Assembly: GCA_003499955.1 (NCBI GenBank)
Contig: DNRP01000102.1
Location: 1,813-16,961, forward strand
Source: Cyanobacteria bacterium UBA9971
GTDB taxonomy: Bacteria; Cyanobacteriota; Vampirovibrionia; Gastranaerophilales; UBA9971
Direction of reading: 5' to 3'
Length of the DNA stretch: 15,149 bases
The notes under the pieces were generated by a model, which worked only from the letters and a program-made list of their open reading frames with translations, was not told the DNA's origin and did no database searches. Positions 5,820 to 14,695 of the stretch are shown piece after piece; position 1 is the first letter of the stretch; every line of letters begins with the position of its first letter. The position numbers were made by a program, and so were the translations under genes.

Positions 5820-6749
5820 ATGATAAGCCTTAAACAATTAAAATCAGATTTCTATGAAGGAAAAATTAACAAGGCGGATTATATTGATAAAATACATGAA
5901 ATACATAAATATTTATTCGAATATGCTGATTTTATTAAAAATACGGATATTTCAAAGATAGAAATAGTAGAAGAAGCTGTAGTTATGTCATTAGCAATTA
6001 CGGATGCCAAAATAATCTGTAATAAAAATGATAAAAGAAATCCGGCCGTAGAAATATTAAATTTTAATTGTGTTGAAAAACCGGAATTAAACATGATGAG
6101 AAAACTTATTAAAGAAAACTCTGTAATTCTGGATATTGGCGCTAATATCGGCTGGTACGCGGTGAATCTTCCAAAATTAATACCGAATGTCAGAATTTAT
6201 TCTTTTGAACCCGTACCTGAAACCTTTGATTATTTAAGACAAAATATTGAGATTAATAATTTAGAAAATATAAAGATATTTAATTTTGGCTTTTACGATA
6301 AAGAAAAAATAATACCTATAAATTTTTATCCTGAATATACAGTAAGCTCTTCCATTGCTAACTTGTCGGAAACAAACAAAGTTGTGAATATACCTTGTAA
6401 ATTTAGGACTTTGGATAATTTTATAAATGAAAATAACTTGAAAATAGATTTTATTAAATGTGATACCGAGGGTTCTGAGATATTTGTTTTTCAAGGAGGG
6501 CTTGAAACTCTTAAAAATCAAAGACCCGTTATATTTGCGGAAATGCTTAGAAAATGGACTGCAAAATTTAATTATCATCCAAATGAAATGATTAAATTAT
6601 TTAAAGACATCGGATATAAATGTTTTTGCATAAATGGTGATTATTTATCAGAAATTACATTAATGACTGATGAAACAACTGAAACAAACTTTTTCTTCCT
6701 TCCTGAAGAAAGAAAAAGTTTTTATAAAAATTTATTATTAATAAATTAA
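5820..6749 (+). CDS. FkbM-family SAM-dependent methyltransferase
   Basis: This 309-residue class I methyltransferase has motif I VILDIGANIGWY (residues 102-113) for S-adenosylmethionine, the acidic SFEPVPE (128-134), and the FkbM signature KIDFIKCDTEGSE (208-220), equivalent to the usual IKIDVEGAE. It ends in a typical FkbM tail with NFFFLPEE (290-297). FkbM proteins in polysaccharide loci usually O-methylate a sugar hydroxyl, either on the nucleotide sugar or on the lipid-linked glycan. The substrate here is unknown. The N-terminal ~95 residues are helical and outside the core fold. ATG at 5820 has AAAAGGA at the right spacing. It leads the plus-strand operon, with RfbF 21 nt downstream, so methylation of the CDP-derived sugar is an attractive inference. 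Confidence 0.9.
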   Translation: MISLKQLKSDFYEGKINKADYIDKIHEIHKYLFEYADFIKNTDISKIEIVEEAVVMSLAITDAKIICNKNDKRNPAVEILNFNCVEKPELNMMRKLIKENSVILDIGANIGWYAVNLPKLIPNVRIYSFEPVPETFDYLRQNIEINNLENIKIFNFGFYDKEKIIPINFYPEYTVSSSIANLSETNKVVNIPCKFRTLDNFINENNLKIDFIKCDTEGSEIFVFQGGLETLKNQRPVIFAEMLRKWTAKFNYHPNEMIKLFKDIGYKCFCINGDYLSEITLMTDETTETNFFFLPEERKSFYKNLLLIN

Positions 6750-6770: not shown

Positions 6771-7586
6771 ATGAAAGTTGTAATTTTAGCAGGCGGATTT
6801 GGAACTCGAATTAGTGAAGAAACTGATTTAGTACCAAAACCAATGATTGAAATAGGCGGAAAACCAATTTTGTGGCATATTATGAAGATTTATTCACGGT
6901 ACGGGCTTAATGAATTTATAATATTGCTCGGTTATAAAGGATATTTAATTAAAGAATATTTTGCAAATTATTTTCTTCATCATTCTGATATAACAATAAA
7001 TTTATCCGAAAATACCCGTGAAATTAATTTAACTAATAATATTGAGCCATGGAAAATATCGTTAATTGATACCGGTTTAGATACTATGACGGGCGGCAGG
7101 ATTAAGAAAATACAAAGTTTTTTCAAAAAAAATGAAACATTTCTGCTTACTTATGGTGATGGAGTTGGGGATATAAATATATTTGAATTACTGAATTGTC
7201 ATAAAAAAAACGGAAAACTGGCTACAGTTACTACAGTTCAGCCTTTCGGAAAATTTGGAGCTATTAATGTTGATAAGCAGGGAATTGTCAAATCTTTTCA
7301 GGAAAAGCCAAAAGGTGATAATTCCTGGGTAAATGGCGGGTTTTTTGTGTTGGAACCAGAAATTTTTAATTATATAAAAGATGAAAACACAGTATGGGAA
7401 AAAGAACCACTAGAAAATCTTTCTAAAGATGAACAACTGGTCGCTTACAAACACCACGGTTTCTGGAAACCAATGGATACTTTAAGCGATAAGAAAGAAT
7501 TGGAAAAATTATGGAATTCGGGTAATGCTCCCTGGCAAATATGGGATGACCGGAGCAACTGCTATAACGTAAAAGAAAAAGTATAA
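6771..7586 (+). CDS. rfbF: Glucose-1-phosphate cytidylyltransferase
   Basis: This 271-residue protein closely resembles Salmonella RfbF/DdhA. It makes CDP-glucose from glucose-1-phosphate and CTP, the entry step to CDP-derived deoxy and branched sugars. Visible motifs are the nucleotide-binding LAGGFGTRISEET (6-18), KPMIEIGGKPILWHIMK (23-39), GYKGYLIKEYFANYFLH (54-70), DTGLDTMTGGR (100-110), TYGDGVGD (127-134), FQEKPKGD (176-183), NGGFFVLEP (188-196) and GFWKPMDTL (230-238). These match the family almost end to end. The C-terminus (after APWQIWD) carries about 12 extra residues. ATG at 6771 is preceded by AGGGGA at good spacing. It sits between the FkbM gene and the ThDP enzyme. The usual partners CDP-glucose 4,6-dehydratase (RfbG) and RfbH are not next to it. 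Confidence 0.95.
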   Translation: MKVVILAGGFGTRISEETDLVPKPMIEIGGKPILWHIMKIYSRYGLNEFIILLGYKGYLIKEYFANYFLHHSDITINLSENTREINLTNNIEPWKISLIDTGLDTMTGGRIKKIQSFFKKNETFLLTYGDGVGDINIFELLNCHKKNGKLATVTTVQPFGKFGAINVDKQGIVKSFQEKPKGDNSWVNGGFFVLEPEIFNYIKDENTVWEKEPLENLSKDEQLVAYKHHGFWKPMDTLSDKKELEKLWNSGNAPWQIWDDRSNCYNVKEKV

Positions 7587-7617
7587 AAGCTGTAACCAGA
7601 GGCTTAAAGAAGTAAAA

Positions 7618-9387
7618 ATGAGAGCATCAGACTATATTATCAACTACCTCGCCGATAATAAAATTAATAAAATATACGGTTATATCGGTGGAGCTATAGC
7701 GTATTTAGCAGATTCTCTCTATAAACACCCTCAAGTAGAAATGGTAAATATGATACATGAACAAGGGGCTGCTTTTGCCGCTGAAGGATTTGCCAGAACA
7801 ACGGGAATAACAGGCGTGGCTATCGCAACAAGCGGACCGGGCGCTACAAATCTTATAACTTCTATAGGCAGCTGTTTTTTTGATTCAATCCCCGCTTTAT
7901 TTATAACAGGACAGGTAAATACCTATGATTACAAATATAATAATCCGAGAAGACAAGTTGGTTTTCAGGAAACAGATATCGTAAGCATAATTAAACCAAT
8001 AACAAAATATGCCGTAATGATATCTAATACAGAAAATCTTCGCTATGAACTTGAAAAATGTTTGTATTTATCCGCGCATGGAAGAAAAGGACCGGTGTTG
8101 CTGGATATTCCAATGAATATTCAAAGAGATGACATTGATTTTGATAAATCAAAATCATTTTTTGACAGCGAAGAATTTCAGGTTTTATCTTGTAAAAATA
8201 ATATTTCAAAAGAAATTTTGGCGGATATAGAGCTTATTATCAATACTTCTAAAAGACCTGTTTTGCTTTTAGGCGGCGGAATAAGATTGGCTTTCGCTAA
8301 TGATGAATTAAAAGTTTTTATTGAAAAGACAAAAATCCCTATAGTCCATTCATTAATGGGAACTGATGCTGTAGCCGGTAATTATAAATACAATATGGGT
8401 TTAATTGGAGCTTATGGTAACAGATATGGAAATTTTACACTAGCTAACGCCGATCTTATAATAGTTTTGGGTTCTAGACTCGATACAAGACAAACAGGAA
8501 CAAACCTTAACTTATTTGCCAGAGAAGCAAAAATTATTCATGTGGATATAGATGAAAATGAATTAAATTGCAAAAATATTGCCAATATAAAGTTAAAGAC
8601 CGATATAAAAGAATTTTTAAAAGAAATAAATTTAATCAATTTCAAACTTAATCTTGATTTTTGGCATAAAAAAATTCTCGAATATAAAGATAAATACCCG
8701 TCAGTTCAAAATATAAACGGCGTTATCAAAAACCCCAATCTTTTAATAGCTCAAATTTTTAACTGTTTAAAAAGCGATGATGTTGTTTGTGTTGATGTCG
8801 GGCAACATCAAATGTGGACAGCTCAATCATGTTGTGTTCAAACAAATCAGCGGATTCATTTTTCCGGAGGAATGGGATCAATGGGCTTTGCATTGCCTTG
8901 CGCTATAGGCTCAACTATAGCGACGGGCAAACGTTCCATTGTTATAACAGGCGATGGTGGTCTACAAATGAATATTCAAGAACTTGAAATATTAAAAAGA
9001 AGAAATCTTCCCGTGAAAATAATTGTTATGAACAACCAAAACCTTGGTATGGTCAGACAATTTCAGGAAATATATTTTGAAAGCAGGCTGCAATCAACCG
9101 TAATTGATTACAGTGTGCCCGATTTTGAAAAAATAGCAAAAGCTTATGGTTTATCGGCAAAATCTATATTTTATTACGAGAATATAAATGATATTCTCAA
9201 AGAATTTTTAGAAGACCCGCTGCCGGGCTTGCTTAATATATATACTGAAAAATTTACGGTTGTTGAACCCAAGTTAATAATTAACTACCCTATAGAAGAT
9301 ATGCACCCGTTCCTTGACAGAAAGGAATTTGAAAGCCGGATGATAATTAAGTCAGCCGTAGAGTCTAAAAATGTACAGTTTTTATAA
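7618..9387 (+). CDS. ThDP-dependent acetolactate-synthase-like enzyme, candidate sugar carboligase (YerE-like)
   Basis: This 589-residue protein has the three-domain acetohydroxyacid synthase fold. The PYR domain holds the cofactor-activating Glu48 in HEQGAAFAAEGFAR. A central FAD/nucleotide-type domain holds VLGSRLDTRQTG (283-294). The PP domain holds the ThDP motif, TGDGG (444-448) through MNNQNLG (471-477). Where biosynthetic AHAS usually has MVxQWQ it reads MVRQFQ, with Phe482 replacing the Trp linked to 2-ketobutyrate preference, and no IlvN/IlvH regulatory subunit lies nearby. Lying directly after rfbF, it resembles YerE of the Yersinia yersiniose pathway, which joins an acetyl unit from pyruvate to a 4-keto CDP-sugar to give a branched sugar. 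That role is inferred from context; ordinary acetolactate synthase remains the alternative. The ribosome binding site is weak (AAGAAG before ATG 7618). The gene lies 31 nt after rfbF and 24 nt before the SDR gene. Confidence 0.85.
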   Translation: MRASDYIINYLADNKINKIYGYIGGAIAYLADSLYKHPQVEMVNMIHEQGAAFAAEGFARTTGITGVAIATSGPGATNLITSIGSCFFDSIPALFITGQVNTYDYKYNNPRRQVGFQETDIVSIIKPITKYAVMISNTENLRYELEKCLYLSAHGRKGPVLLDIPMNIQRDDIDFDKSKSFFDSEEFQVLSCKNNISKEILADIELIINTSKRPVLLLGGGIRLAFANDELKVFIEKTKIPIVHSLMGTDAVAGNYKYNMGLIGAYGNRYGNFTLANADLIIVLGSRLDTRQTGTNLNLFAREAKIIHVDIDENELNCKNIANIKLKTDIKEFLKEINLINFKLNLDFWHKKILEYKDKYPSVQNINGVIKNPNLLIAQIFNCLKSDDVVCVDVGQHQMWTAQSCCVQTNQRIHFSGGMGSMGFALPCAIGSTIATGKRSIVITGDGGLQMNIQELEILKRRNLPVKIIVMNNQNLGMVRQFQEIYFESRLQSTVIDYSVPDFEKIAKAYGLSAKSIFYYENINDILKEFLEDPLPGLLNIYTEKFTVVEPKLIINYPIEDMHPFLDRKEFESRMIIKSAVESKNVQFL

Positions 9388-9411
9388 AATATTACAAATT
9401 AAGGAATAATT

Positions 9412-10452
9412 ATGTATAGCGACATAGTGAAAGAAGATTTAAAATACATAACCGACGCTGATTTACCCTGGAATTTACTTGAAAATTCTACAGTTCTTAT
9501 TTCGGGAGCTAACGGGTTTTTGCCGTCTTATATGGTTCATACGCTTATTTATTTAAATGAAAAATATAATAAAAATATTAAAGTTCTTGCACTTGTCAGA
9601 AATAAAAAAAAAGCAGAAAAAAAATTTAGAAATTATATTAATAGAAAAGATTTTGAACTGATTGTTCAGGATGTATGCGACCCGATTAAAACAAATATAG
9701 ATGTGGATTTTATAATACACGCCGCCAGTCAGGCAAGTCCAAAATATTACGGGATAGACCCTATCGGTACTTTTAACGCCAATGTAAAAGGTACGCATAA
9801 TCTTATTAAACTTGCGGAAGAGAAAAAATCTAAAAGTTTTCTGTTTTTCAGCAGCTGCGAAGTTTATGGAGAAATTAACGAAAACCAAATACCCACAAAA
9901 GAAACTGATTATGGATATTTAGACTCGATGAATGTCAGATCCTGTTACGCCGAAGGCAAAAGAGCAGGAGAAACAATGTGTATTTGCTCGCACTATCAGT
10001 ATAATATTCCCGTAAAAATCGTAAGACCTTTTCATATATACGGTCCCGGCATGAATCTTGATGACGGAAGAGTGGTTGCAGATTTTGTAAGATATTTGGT
10101 AAATAATACAAATCTTGTTTTAAATAGCGACGGTAGTGCTACAAGAGCTTTTTGCTATATAGCGGATGCTATTATAGGATTTTTTACCGTACTTTTAAAA
10201 GGAGAATCCGGTCAAGCTTATAATGTTGGATTTAATAAAGAAACAAGCATTCTTGAGCTTGGCAATATTCTCATAAATCTTTTTCCTGAAAAAAATTTAA
10301 AAGTGATTAAAAAAGAAAATAAATTTCAAAAAGGCTATATAAAAAGTAAAATAACACGAGTTTGTCCTGATATTTCAAAAATAAAAAAACTTGGCTGGAA
10401 ACCTGTTTTTTGTATTCAAGAAGGTTTTAAAAGAACAATAAAAAGTTTTTGA
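9412..10452 (+). CDS. NAD-dependent sugar-nucleotide epimerase/dehydratase (extended SDR)
   Basis: This 346-residue extended SDR has an NAD-binding SGANGFLPS (31-39), VQDVCDP (85-91), IIHAASQASP (101-110), the active-site region FFSSCEVYGE (145-154), YAEGK (179-183, the YxxxK motif) and RPFHIYGPGMNLDDGRVV (205-222). Sugar-contact TRAFCYIAD (244-252) follows. RSCYAEGKR and the TRAF segment resemble UDP-glucuronate decarboxylase (UXS) and its relatives more than CDP-glucose 4,6-dehydratase, which would show TGHTGFKG. It most likely oxidises C4 of a nucleotide sugar as part of dehydration, decarboxylation, epimerisation or later reduction, but which reaction and which nucleotide cannot be read. 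Context suggests it acts before or after the ThDP enzyme. ATG 9412 has AAGGAA at good spacing. It is the last gene of the plus operon, 8 nt from the convergent next gene. Confidence 0.88.
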   Translation: MYSDIVKEDLKYITDADLPWNLLENSTVLISGANGFLPSYMVHTLIYLNEKYNKNIKVLALVRNKKKAEKKFRNYINRKDFELIVQDVCDPIKTNIDVDFIIHAASQASPKYYGIDPIGTFNANVKGTHNLIKLAEEKKSKSFLFFSSCEVYGEINENQIPTKETDYGYLDSMNVRSCYAEGKRAGETMCICSHYQYNIPVKIVRPFHIYGPGMNLDDGRVVADFVRYLVNNTNLVLNSDGSATRAFCYIADAIIGFFTVLLKGESGQAYNVGFNKETSILELGNILINLFPEKNLKVIKKENKFQKGYIKSKITRVCPDISKIKKLGWKPVFCIQEGFKRTIKSF

Positions 10453-10460
10453 ATAAATCT

Positions 10461-10916
10461 TTAAAACGCCTGGTCAATTGAATTATAGAAATTAAAATCA
10501 TTTAAAATCTTGCAAATCCAAACGTTTTTAGCTTGTATTTCTATCACTCCGTCTTTTTCAGTAAGAGTAAGTCTTGAATAGTCGCAAAATTTTAAAATCC
10601 CATTAAAATGTACAGTATCTTCAAAAGACATGGGCTGATTTATAAGAAGCCCGTCCGCATCAAAAATTCCTATATCTCGGGAACTTTTCCCCGGGGGAAG
10701 CTTGCGAATCCATTTGTAGTCAGTTATTTCTATTGTTTGATTTGTTTTGTTACAGATAATTGCACCAACATGGCTTTTTGAATAATGCACAAACTTTTTA
10801 TATTTTGACAGAAGTTTGTTTGTGTCTATATCAAAGAATAAAAAGAGAAAACTCATTAAAACAAAAGCCAGCAGGCATATCGGCGCAAATAATATTTTTA
10901 TTTTTCGGGTTGTCAT
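10461..10916 (-). CDS. Membrane-anchored protein of unknown function
   Basis: I do not recognise this family. A longer frame opens at 10994, but ATG at 10916 (protein MTTRKIKILF..., 151 residues) is preferred. It has AGAGGGA 4 nt upstream, and a good sigma70-type promoter lies between the two possible starts. The protein starts with TTRKIK, then one hydrophobic helix (about residues 8-29), so it is probably an inner-membrane anchor or uncleaved signal with the rest outside the cytoplasm. The soluble part is about 120 residues of predicted beta-rich sequence with ICNKTNQTIEITDYKWIRKLPPGKSSRDIG (54-83), which could be a beta-sandwich, and four cysteines (55, 111, 135 and one in the helix). It converges on the SDR gene and diverges from the GT4 gene at 11097. 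A link to the polysaccharide is unproven. Confidence 0.7.
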   Translation of the reverse strand: MTTRKIKILFAPICLLAFVLMSFLFLFFDIDTNKLLSKYKKFVHYSKSHVGAIICNKTNQTIEITDYKWIRKLPPGKSSRDIGIFDADGLLINQPMSFEDTVHFNGILKFCDYSRLTLTEKDGVIEIQAKNVWICKILNDFNFYNSIDQAF

Positions 10917-10947
10917 AACTTCCCTCTTCTTTTGAAAGTAAAAGTTT

Positions 10948-10975
10948 ATTATATTTGCGGAAGCGGTATTGTAAA
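10948..10975 (-). promoter_or_regulatory. Sigma70-like promoter for the 151-residue membrane protein gene
   Basis: On the minus strand TTTACA (10975-10970, five of six matches to TTGACA) and a perfect TATAAT (10953-10948) are 16 nt apart. Transcription would start near 10941, giving a leader of about 25 nt with a ribosome binding site before ATG 10916. Confidence 0.65.
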
Positions 10976-11030
10976 TTATCGAGGTGGGGAGCAAAGTGGG
11001 GATTTAAATTAATTCTCCCGAAGAAAATAC

Positions 11031-13130: not shown

Positions 13131-13166
13131 AATTGTATTTGTATTTATATATACAATATTACAATT
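13131..13166. repeat. AT-rich nested inverted repeat at the end of the EpsI-like gene
   Basis: AATTGTA (13131-13137) pairs with TACAATT (13160-13166), and inside it TTGTAT (13139-13144) pairs with ATACAA (13151-13156), giving a long interrupted AT hairpin that spans the EpsI stop codon. Reading the minus strand, a T6 run follows within about 10 nt. It could be a weak terminator separating EpsI from the HDOD gene or an operator for the HDOD promoter. The low GC makes either uncertain. Confidence 0.3.
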
Positions 13167-13797
13167 TATTTACAATTTGTTTGTAAAGAATTTTATTGAC
13201 TTCCAGAGCGAATTTTTTTAAATTTTCAATATTTTCCTCAGGTGTATATAAAATTACAATTCCATAAGTTTTAACAGGTTTTCCCGTTATTTTTTTAAAG
13301 ATAATCGCGCTCCAAAATTCTGTTCTGGTCGCGTAATTCGCCTCCAAATCCGTATACCAGTATATAAATAAATATTCTTTGTCCGCTTTTTTTGTCTTTA
13401 TAAAATTTGCGGTTAAATCAGGCGAGAGCGTTAATTTTTTTTTATTTAAAAACTTAAAACCTTGTAATTTGTAACAAATTTGCGGATCATGAATCTTTTT
13501 TTTATTGTCAGCTAATACAAGAGCCATTTTAATATCATTATTATTTGTTTTTTTGTAAACTCTTAAAATAAGGTCTTCCGTTGACATTATTTTAAAAATA
13601 CCGCTATTTTTTTCAAGTTTTAAATTTTGTCCGACCCAACCGTTAATATTTTTAGGAAATTTTTTAGTAACAGAAAAATTGCTTGCAGCATTTCTGTTAA
13701 AATCAATATTTGCCATTATAAAAATAAAAAACATGCTTAAAAAAAGGATTATTTTTTTATTGTGAAGCAGCAATTTTGTCGTCCTCAATAAATTCAT
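13159..13797 (-). CDS. epsI: EpsI-like exosortase-associated protein (DUF3485)
   Basis: A 212-residue protein with one N-terminal membrane helix (about residues 15-31) and a domain resembling the EpsI/DUF3485 partner of exosortases. HDPQICYKLQGFKF (103-116) corresponds to the usual H.P..CYP..G motif, and FIYWYTD (144-150) to the FWYW-type strand, with a basic/hydrophobic C-terminal part. EpsI proteins are found next to or fused with exosortases in exopolysaccharide loci, probably acting on the periplasmic side of the membrane; their exact role is unsettled. ATG 13797 overlaps the exosortase gene by 41 nt and has no clear ribosome binding site. A TTG at 13773, nine nt after GAGG and reducing the overlap to 17 nt, is a good alternative start. 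The Cys of the CYP motif is present but its Pro is replaced by Lys. Confidence 0.82.
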   Translation of the reverse strand: MNLLRTTKLLLHNKKIILFLSMFFIFIMANIDFNRNAASNFSVTKKFPKNINGWVGQNLKLEKNSGIFKIMSTEDLILRVYKKTNNNDIKMALVLADNKKKIHDPQICYKLQGFKFLNKKKLTLSPDLTANFIKTKKADKEYLFIYWYTDLEANYATRTEFWSAIIFKKITGKPVKTYGIVILYTPEENIENLKKFALEVNKILYKQIVNKL

Positions 13798-14695
13798 TTA
13801 TAACTAAAATAATTAATAAAGATAACGCGAAAATACCAAGCCCGATGTAATAATGAAAATTTTCCGAGCCTTTAAGTCCGTTATAAATAATATAAAAATC
13901 AATTAATAAAATTCTTATAATATTGCCGATAAAAGATATTGCTAATGAAAACGAAATAATCAAAAATTTTTTAAATACAGAAATATTTTTAAAATAAAAT
14001 AGCAGAAAATTTATTACAAGCAGGGAAGAAAGGGATTTTACGCCTGTACAGCCTGCTTCAACCGTGACCAGATATTTGTCTATAAAAATATTAGAGCCGA
14101 GAGAATATGCGCCTATGTTTAAAAAATTAAGTATTTTAGCGGATATATCCGCTAAAAAAATTTGCAGCGGGGTTGTAAGCCTGAAAATTGGAAGCACCGG
14201 AATTGATAATGATAAAAGAATAATTACAGGAAGAACAATCATAAAAAGATTTTTCCCGTAAAGTAATAAAAGTATCCCCGAAAATAATAAAGGCAAAGAT
14301 AAGCCGCTTAACAAGTCCATATCCGCTTTATTTCCCGTATAATAAAACAAAAGTCCTGTTATTAATGGTAATAACCCTAAATTCGTCGGATTTATTTCGG
14401 TTTTTTGGAGTTCTACGGCTTTTGTTTTAAAAAATTGAACCACGAAGATAATTAAGAAAGGGAAAAAAGAATAAAACGAGTCAAAATTAAACCATTCTTT
14501 TGTCCAGTTTGGAATATATTTGAGGTACAAAACACTTAAAGCAAAAAAAATAATTAAATCAAAATTAAACTTTGCCGTCATTGCGAGGAGGGGCTTTAGC
14601 CCCGACGAAGCAATCCAAAAAGCAAAAATTGGATTGCTTCGTCGCAAGCTCCTCGCAATGACAGTTAGGCTTTGATTGCAAATTGGTATAAGCAT
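13757..14695 (-). CDS. Exosortase, with a palindromic repeat encoding its N-terminus
   Basis: A 312-residue polytopic protein with about eight hydrophobic helices. It has the complete exosortase/archaeosortase triad: Cys216 in VEAGCTGVKSL, Arg261 in GNIIRILLI and His281 in ENFHYYIGLG. Exosortases are inner-membrane transpeptidases thought to cleave PEP-CTERM-type tails of exported proteins and are often tied to exopolysaccharide genes. Residues 12-40 are translated from an 86-bp palindromic repeat; normal family-like sequence begins about TAKFNFDLIIFFALSV. The ATG at 14695 has GAGGA 8 nt upstream, better than the ATG at 14581 inside the repeat, which has no Shine-Dalgarno. The stop of the preceding membrane protein gene abuts the start, and EpsI overlaps the end, so the three are probably one operon. 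No PEP-CTERM substrate was found here. Confidence 0.88.
   Translation of the reverse strand: MLIPICNQSLTVIARSLRRSNPIFAFWIASSGLKPLLAMTAKFNFDLIIFFALSVLYLKYIPNWTKEWFNFDSFYSFFPFLIIFVVQFFKTKAVELQKTEINPTNLGLLPLITGLLFYYTGNKADMDLLSGLSLPLLFSGILLLLYGKNLFMIVLPVIILLSLSIPVLPIFRLTTPLQIFLADISAKILNFLNIGAYSLGSNIFIDKYLVTVEAGCTGVKSLSSLLVINFLLFYFKNISVFKKFLIISFSLAISFIGNIIRILLIDFYIIYNGLKGSENFHYYIGLGIFALSLLIILVINEFIEDDKIAASQ
14577..14662. repeat. Large palindromic REP/MITE-like element inside the exosortase gene
   Basis: Outer arms of 14 bp (14577-14590 and 14649-14662) and inner arms of 16 bp (14603-14618 and 14629-14644) match perfectly, with a loop of 10 bases. An extra small hairpin, GGGCT..AGCCC, lies in the left half (14591-14602). 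The core GTCATTGCGAGGAG...GAAGCAATCC resembles a dispersed repeat seen in many unrelated bacterial genomes, usually between genes. It is far more GC-rich than its surroundings, which suggests insertion. No transposase is present, so it would be mobilised in trans, if at all. Confidence 0.9.

Follow-up and report, generated by a model that had tools for sequence, protein, structure and literature searches.

The window analysed here is the whole of a 15,149-nucleotide stretch of DNA (G000:C75:1813-16961) from Cyanobacteria bacterium UBA9971, a member of the Gastranaerophilales represented by a metagenome-assembled genome (MAG) of 2.24 Mb in 188 contigs that is 83% complete. Four genes on the forward strand of the window form an operon with intergenic gaps of 21, 31 and 24 bases. 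The first encodes an FkbM-family methyltransferase (5820-6749), possibly an O-methyltransferase of a branched sugar, and is followed by genes for an RfbF/DdhA glucose-1-phosphate cytidylyltransferase of 271 amino acids, the enzyme of CDP-glucose synthesis (6771-7586), for a YerE-like thiamine diphosphate (ThDP)-dependent carboligase of 589 amino acids that is predicted to transfer the acyl group of a 2-keto acid onto a keto sugar (7618-9387), and for an extended short-chain dehydrogenase/reductase (SDR) of 346 amino acids with an N-terminal helix (9412-10452), the likeliest NADPH ketoreductase of the CDP-linked branch, in a role like that of YerF. This cassette probably encodes the branching steps of a yersiniose-type pathway whose first half lies at a different site in the genome, a reading that is held with moderate confidence.

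A first-pass annotation of the window had described RfbF, the ThDP enzyme and the SDR as one tight operon, and this description stands, as the ORFs are exactly placed and the arrangement is kept in another member of the genus, Candidatus Melainabacteria GWA2_34_9 (locus L009). There, the identical set of four genes is found in the same order, with the ThDP gene broken by a scaffold gap of N. The four proteins are 85-91% identical between the two loci, with dN/dS values of 0.08-0.16 (the ThDP gene being compared in two pieces), and thus purifying selection acts on the cassette, which is no chance pattern of ORFs. The genome-contig search gave two loci, the second of which (L010, 23% identity) was left out. 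For FkbM, the matches to PF05050 (63.4 bits) and TIGR01444 (105.5 bits) are both over cut-off and the L009 copy is 84% identical, and the methyltransferase role put forward in the first-pass annotation is plausible. Promoter and terminator scans gave no more than background (36 promoters against 29.3 +/- 5.7 expected, and 3 terminators against 3.1 +/- 1.6 expected), and no paper on the cassette in Melainabacteria was found in the open-licence PMC literature.

RfbG and RfbH are encoded at a second locus

The RfbF of the window scores 409.8 bits against TIGR02623 (cut-off 300.25) and 346 bits against PDB entry 1tzf, in agreement with its first annotation. Neither RfbG nor RfbH was found in the window: a genome search with the RfbG profile TIGR02622 reaches it only at the SDR, with 50 bits against a cut-off of 278.45, and the RfbH search matches the source genome on contig C94 only. 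That contig carries a complete rfbF2-rfbG-rfbH operon (G000:C94:13021-16314), whose products score 422.6 bits with TIGR02623 (cut-off 300.25), 471.8 bits with TIGR02622 (cut-off 278.45) and 687.1 bits with NF011936 (cut-off 423), respectively. At the level of sequence, these scores establish the identities of RfbF, RfbG and RfbH. The idea of a pathway without RfbG and RfbH therefore holds for the cassette and the window but fails for the genome, where the search proposed in the first-pass annotation finds both genes on C94. That annotation had also regarded rfbG and rfbH lying just outside the same cluster as the sign of a classical arrangement; the genes do not lie there in the literal sense, the two loci being on different contigs, but both are in the genome.

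An equivalent rfbF-rfbG-rfbH operon, 82-94% identical, is present in GWA2_34_9. In a third genome of the genus (G395, 99% complete), rfbG-rfbH is clustered with a different ThDP enzyme, and no relative of the SDR was found at E <= 1e-70. Thus, each of the three examined genomes from the genus has rfbGH, and two of them also have the cassette.

The ThDP-dependent enzyme groups with YerE

The ThDP protein contains three TPP-enzyme domains (PF02775, PF00205 and PF02776, all over cut-off), and falls under the cut-off of the IlvB profile TIGR00118 (471.3 against 538.35 bits). Its best match in the PDB is 5ahk with 410 bits, the next being plant acetohydroxyacid synthase (AHAS) with 301 bits, and a 17-sequence profile of the enzyme scores 506 against the former and 417 against the latter. 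The entry 5AHK is itself named acetolactate synthase II, and we take it to be the YerE of Pseudomonas protegens (PpYerE). The two enzymes are 41% identical over aligned positions and have the motifs GSR(L/M)D.RQTG and LGMVR.FQE.YFE in common. In a tree of 35 sequences, comprising the window enzyme, 16 relatives from databases, 15 proteins encoded in the genomes and contigs read (two of them IlvB), PpYerE and plant AHAS, and counting one distant enzyme from the source genome, the window enzyme falls in one clade with PpYerE, the sole characterised YerE in the tree (FastTree 0.992, UFBoot 89), and the IlvB clade stands apart (1.0/100). In addition, residues E48, D446, V479, R480 and F482 are kept in all 120 best matches listed; the position of Phe482 is occupied by Trp in plant AHAS and in both IlvB proteins from the phylum. 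Such evidence supports a YerE-like, not an IlvB-like, ThDP carboligase, as first annotated. According to excerpts of PMC12247030, YerE-like enzymes are a decarboxylase subclass known for isolated-ketone acceptors, with over 200 candidates identified in silico, and an enzyme of this kind is thus already known.

Close relatives of the ThDP enzyme are rare in the phylum: a search of 386 genomes at E <= 1e-140 gave two with such an enzyme, one of them the window's own (GWA2_34_9 is outside this set of 386). Its high-ranking named relatives belong to Campylobacterota, Elusimicrobia, Seleniivibrio (these three with roughly 60% identity) and Bacteriovoracaceae, and those of the window RfbF to Gastranaerophilales, Deferribacteraceae, Persephonella and Elusimicrobia, a taxonomic spread that would fit transfer of a module. 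The ThDP cluster P0002 and the RfbF cluster P0333 probably occur in one genome, the longest contig of each being 2,575,278 bases. Matches of the ThDP protein to plasmids (best 20 of 1520 records) and to phages (best 10 of 53 records) were all below 60% identity, and alignment against viral contigs gave seven loci with at most 35% identity. When plasmids were searched with PpYerE for YerF, the 15 of 1555 records listed held only acetolactate synthases or unannotated places.

The source genome encodes another acetolactate-synthase-like ThDP enzyme in a separate sugar-type cluster (L100:8230-9948, on G000:C148). This protein scores 333.6 bits with TIGR00118, under the cut-off, and belongs to a second ThDP clade (FastTree 0.948, UFBoot 95) whose members are 27-36% identical to the window enzyme and which has no characterised member in the tree.

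The SDR is a likely CDP-ketone reductase

For the SDR, none of the 25 cut-offs of the NCBIfam families matched is passed. The best sequence match in the PDB is human UXS1, and the best match by VIA-align is the CDP-6-fructose reductase HS5.17. The SDR and HS5.17 have in common an N-terminal helix (residues 4-14 in the structural model of the SDR), an LVRNK.K motif, Ser/Thr-x-Glu, YxxxK and an active-site Arg, as well as the Arg/Lys motif for NADP(H), represented in the SDR by Arg63 and Lys67. Val62-Arg63 lies at the end of strand beta-2, where Asp62 is found in all eight UXS-side sequences (UXS1 and seven others) but in none of the 37 sequences of two reductase groups. Residue 208 separates the same groups: it is His in the SDR and in 26 of the 27 sequences of its own clade, Gln in eight of the ten of the TarI-linked/HS5.17 group, and Asn in eight of eight on the UXS side, from which the N-terminal helix also sets the SDR apart. 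In the SDR tree, UXS1 falls in the other clade (FastTree 0.95). The clade of 27 is made up of twelve loci with neighbourhoods that were read and 15 database proteins without.

The known enzymes bear out both the likeness and the differences. In the excerpts of PMC10918830, a cytidylyltransferase gene adjoins that of HS5.17/Mnp2 (PDB 8V4G/8V4H), as it does that of the window SDR, but the partner is of the IspD/TarI type there and RfbF here; furthermore, Gln196 of HS5.17 bridges the C3' and C4' hydroxyls of glucitol, whereas the window SDR has His208 at this position. UXS1 and EvdS6, the latter as presented in excerpts of PMC10338323, resemble the SDR in their extended SDR fold, S-x-E and YxxxK. 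By its cofactor motif, residue 208, N-terminal helix, tree position and VIA-align match, the protein is most likely an NADPH-dependent CDP-ketone reductase, and the likeliest ketoreductase of the CDP-linked branch. The UXS-like label of the first-pass annotation is thus apt for the whole sequence (155 bits with UXS1) but not for the subfamily, given the helix, Arg63/Lys67, His208 and the trees, and its suggestion that the SDR makes the keto acceptor directly finds no support in view of these features and the VIA-align match. A UXS or dehydratase identity was rejected on the cofactor motif, residue 208, the tree and the VIA-align match; Ser-x-Glu was tried as a discriminator and dropped, being present in HS5.17 too.

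At least 17 of 120 listed SDR homologues are named UDP-glucuronate decarboxylase, which is likely an annotation error, since the cofactor motif argues against that activity. Among phages (best 10 of 205 records), all matches to the SDR were below 60% identity.

Neighbourhoods of SDR relatives

Twelve loci were compared, G225 with an SDR relative of 41% identity and the others with 48% or more: the window, GWA2_34_9, G097, G198, G009, G069, G444, G451, G460, G307, G225 and the viral L038, of which G097 and G225 were found only by a phylum-wide search. Labels for neighbouring ORFs came from BLAST comparison with 8 or 18 reference proteins, and ten of the named neighbours were checked with Pfam. 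A ThDP enzyme is encoded within ~5 kb in eleven of the twelve loci, ten being acetolactate-synthase-like and one a split transketolase (G097); the twelfth locus, G451, is a 3.9 kb contig with rfbF-rfbG-rfbH-SDR alone. A PpYerE-clade enzyme is present in three of the ten acetolactate-synthase-like loci, namely the window, GWA2_34_9 and G198.

RfbH is encoded within ~9 kb of the SDR in eight of the twelve loci (G097, G198, G009, G069, G451, G307, G225 and L038) and at a distant site of the genome in three (the window, GWA2_34_9 and G444). It was not found in G460; in the otherwise parallel G307 locus, rfbH is directly followed by a gene whose counterpart in G460 lies 111 bases from the start of the contig. 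Of 383 genomes of the order, 103 encode RfbH, including eight of the nine with a close SDR (Fisher p = 1.6e-4) and nine of the 14 that are SDR-positive (Fisher p = 0.003), both values ignoring kinship and assembly gaps. Five of these 14 (L095-L099, 38-40% identity) have SDR genes that directly follow IspD/TarI-type genes, and were kept out of the clade count. The three closest annotated plasmid relatives of the SDR (43, 36 and 34% identity) likewise lie directly after an IspD/TarI-type cytidylyltransferase gene, and in a fourth plasmid neighbourhood (Paenibacillus, unannotated) an IspD-family gene lies ~2.6 kb downstream of the SDR. Six more loci have an FkbM homologue in the vicinity of an SDR relative (40-47% identity in L025, L028, L029, L039 and L044, and 29% in L038).

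Second-clade ThDP enzymes may also branch sugars, because rfbFGH is nearby and G225 and G198 encode an acetaldehyde dehydrogenase together with a DmpG-type aldolase; for the sugar-branching enzyme ErwE, excerpts of PMC12247030 give 4-hydroxy-2-oxo acids as donors. No donor genes of the DmpG-type aldolase/acetaldehyde dehydrogenase kind were found in the window.

Several individual loci deserve mention. In G198 (L026:4822-17793, on G198:C1), rfbF, an rfbG split over two ORFs, rfbH, two SDR genes from the families treated here, a dehydrogenase and two different ThDP enzymes are accompanied by a ketopantoate hydroxymethyltransferase, part of an acetaldehyde dehydrogenase and a DmpG-type aldolase, a gene set that possibly points to unusual 2-keto-acid donors. 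In G097 (L025:6014-9744, on G097:C220), the SDR and FkbM genes are flanked by rfbFGH on one side and a two-gene transketolase on the other, a layout which suggests that the SDR class may also serve transketolase-made branches; homologues of the transketolase pair are found beside a more distant SDR in L046. Alignment of the SDR against viral contigs gave 32 loci, and the neighbourhoods of eight (L038-L044 and L046) were read. Two of these, from IMG/VR contigs classed as viral, are possibly surface-sugar modules carried by phages: L038:1-9875 has part of rfbF, rfbH, a ThDP enzyme, the SDR and a weak FkbM, and L039:1693-6784 has SDR-FkbM-rfbH-rfbG-rfbF. Finally, genes for RfbF, a UXS-side SDR (Asp62, Asn208) and a nucleotide-sugar dehydrogenase (TIGR03026, over cut-off) are consecutive in another genome of the phylum (L030:6474-9722, on G123:C185), with no adjoining rfbG. 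It is this locus, not the window, that looks like a candidate for a route from CDP-glucose via CDP-glucuronate to a CDP-(4-keto)pentose.

A probable yersiniose-type pathway at two loci

In excerpts of PMC12247030 and PMC4509608, the yersiniose A pathway comprises ddhA-D, YerE and YerF in Yersinia pseudotuberculosis, and is also found in Pseudomonas WCS417. The genome studied here is like it in having RfbF, RfbG and RfbH and a YerE-like ThDP enzyme followed by an SDR, and unlike it in that the genes are split between two contigs, the operon includes FkbM and RfbF is duplicated. What the sequences themselves establish is the ThDP subfamily, the relationship and cofactor motif of the SDR, and the association of the genes.

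From these we infer the substrates, the order of steps, the use of C94 products by the cassette, the donor length, the working cofactor, the methylation and the end product as follows. RfbF of the cassette and RfbF2 of C94 would supply CDP-glucose, which RfbG would convert to CDP-4-keto-6-deoxy-glucose and RfbH, with a partner reductase, to CDP-4-keto-3,6-dideoxy-glucose. The ThDP enzyme would then decarboxylate pyruvate or another 2-keto acid and add the acyl group at C4, and the 4-C-acyl sugar would be reduced at the exocyclic ketone of its branch by the SDR with NADPH, giving a 4-C-hydroxyalkyl sugar. FkbM could optionally O-methylate the sugar, and neighbouring glycosyltransferases would help to build the finished sugar into an exopolysaccharide. 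The step predicted for the SDR resembles that of Pau7, the paulomycin octose ketoreductase, which according to excerpts of PMC4753412 reduces a C-4 acetyl branch with NADPH; Pau7, however, belongs to the aldo-keto reductases and acts on paulomycin E, whereas the window enzyme is an SDR that would act on a CDP-sugar. A C-branched CDP-sugar, as proposed in the first-pass annotation, is most likely the product of the operon, and the pathway is most likely of the yersiniose type, split between two loci, and not new chemistry.

A number of observations weigh against this pathway. The cassette and rfbGH are on separate contigs in both cassette-bearing genomes, and the cassette retains its own RfbF despite a second RfbF in the genome. 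Seven of the ten acetolactate-synthase-like loci have second-clade ThDP enzymes only, with both clades in G198, so that the SDR has no exclusive tie to the PpYerE clade. Weak FkbM-like genes (29-30% identity) near two TarI-linked SDRs (L097 and L098) indicate that FkbM is no specific partner. The relative of the C148 enzyme in G395 lies ~5 kb from rfbH, and the C94 products may thus serve the C148 enzyme. For the SDR, UXS1 outscores HS5.17 by sequence (155 against 97 bits) and by profile (192 against 155), and ranks above it by Foldseek E-value. Furthermore, UFBoot values are 92 for the split between SDR and UXS (with the viral vL046 on the UXS side), 64 for a stricter form of this split, and 65 for the SDR clade itself.

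The location of RfbF in the cassette and of RfbH outside it would suit a different acceptor, in which the ThDP enzyme takes CDP-4-keto-6-deoxy-glucose from RfbG and makes a 3-hydroxylated 6-deoxy-4-C-acyl hexose, with RfbH serving another ThDP enzyme. The C148 enzyme, in its sugar cluster and with a relative clustered with rfbG-rfbH in G395, could be that enzyme. This arrangement is unlikely in view of the company that RfbH keeps with close SDR relatives, both across the order and within the twelve loci. The product without 3-deoxygenation envisaged in the first-pass annotation is also less likely because the genome has RfbG and RfbH and the SDR is not of the UXS type; a 3-hydroxylated product nevertheless keeps a small but real chance, since the cassette has its own RfbF and the C148 enzyme could use the RfbH product. 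Somewhat more doubtful is the compound proposal that the cassette branches the RfbG product without RfbH, keeping the 3-hydroxyl, and that the SDR also represents a new class of NADPH ketoreductase for branches made by PpYerE-like, second-clade and split-transketolase ThDP enzymes in cyanobacteria, Melainabacteria and phages.

The standing of UXS1 in the PDB, by sequence and by Foldseek E-value, together with Ser148-x-Glu150 and YxxxK, could instead be taken as signs of a UXS-type or dehydratase-type SDR that itself makes the keto sugar for the ThDP enzyme. A precedent is EvdS6, a UXS-type enzyme that, in excerpts of PMC10338323, releases UDP-4-keto-xylose, a proposed branched-sugar precursor; the UXS route to eurekanate proposed there would be a fair analogy in principle, but the window SDR is without UXS markers. 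Glu150 and YxxxK do not discriminate, being common to the HS5.17 reductase, the score with the RfbG profile TIGR02622 is 48.5 against a cut-off of 278.45, and the residues, helix, trees and structural match discussed above make such an enzyme quite improbable.

Several SDRs of O-antigen clusters carry out 4-ketoreduction of the RfbH product. The window SDR, a CDP-sugar reductase by relationship that has RfbH nearby as regularly as the ThDP enzyme, might do the same, giving a paratose- or abequose-like sugar, with the ThDP enzyme working elsewhere; this is very unlikely, as ThDP enzymes of three different kinds are encoded in eleven of the twelve clade loci. That the ThDP enzyme is the organism's acetolactate synthase for branched-chain amino acids, present in a sugar operon by chance, is scarcely credible even though it is the top TIGR00118 match of the MAG (471 bits), in which no IlvB over the cut-off was found and ilvC is present, because the trees separate it from IlvB and the missing ilvB is probably best explained by an assembly gap in the 83%-complete MAG: an IlvN fragment, with a LeuA-type gene beside it, stops exactly at the end of contig C16, ilvC was found, and G395 carries a true IlvB (813 bits) without a close relative of the cassette SDR. 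IlvB was rejected as the identity of the ThDP enzyme on these grounds and on its TIGR00118 score.

Genomic setting of the cassette

The cassette is flanked by glycosyltransferase genes, and a weak flippase-like protein (NF041503, 100 bits, below the cut-off of 300) is encoded on the strand opposite to the operon. The surroundings also encode a protein of the exosortase family (PF09721) next to a DUF3485 protein and, on the same contig, a bacterial sugar transferase and a PEP-CTERM motif protein (21.8 bits against a cut-off of 20.7); this set spans 13159-14695 and L017:1274-2791. By its predicted gene content, the locus in which the cassette sits is exosortase-linked and of the exopolysaccharide type. 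Between the cassette and a glycosyltransferase gene, a small protein without a Pfam or NCBIfam match is encoded on the reverse strand (10461-10994), with a counterpart at the equivalent place in L009 (9058-9546).

Implications

The absence of RfbG and RfbH from a cassette is not evidence for a pathway free of them, and the present case may serve as a caution. The kind of ThDP enzyme and the yersiniose-type pathway are already known from the sources excerpted here, and the SDR clade is the part most worth following. Stereospecific ketoreduction to yersiniose A and B was called uncharacterised in 2016, in excerpts of PMC4753412. The SDR clade, with Arg63 and His208 and an association with ThDP enzymes in sugar clusters, represents a concrete candidate family for the ketoreduction of the yersiniose branch.

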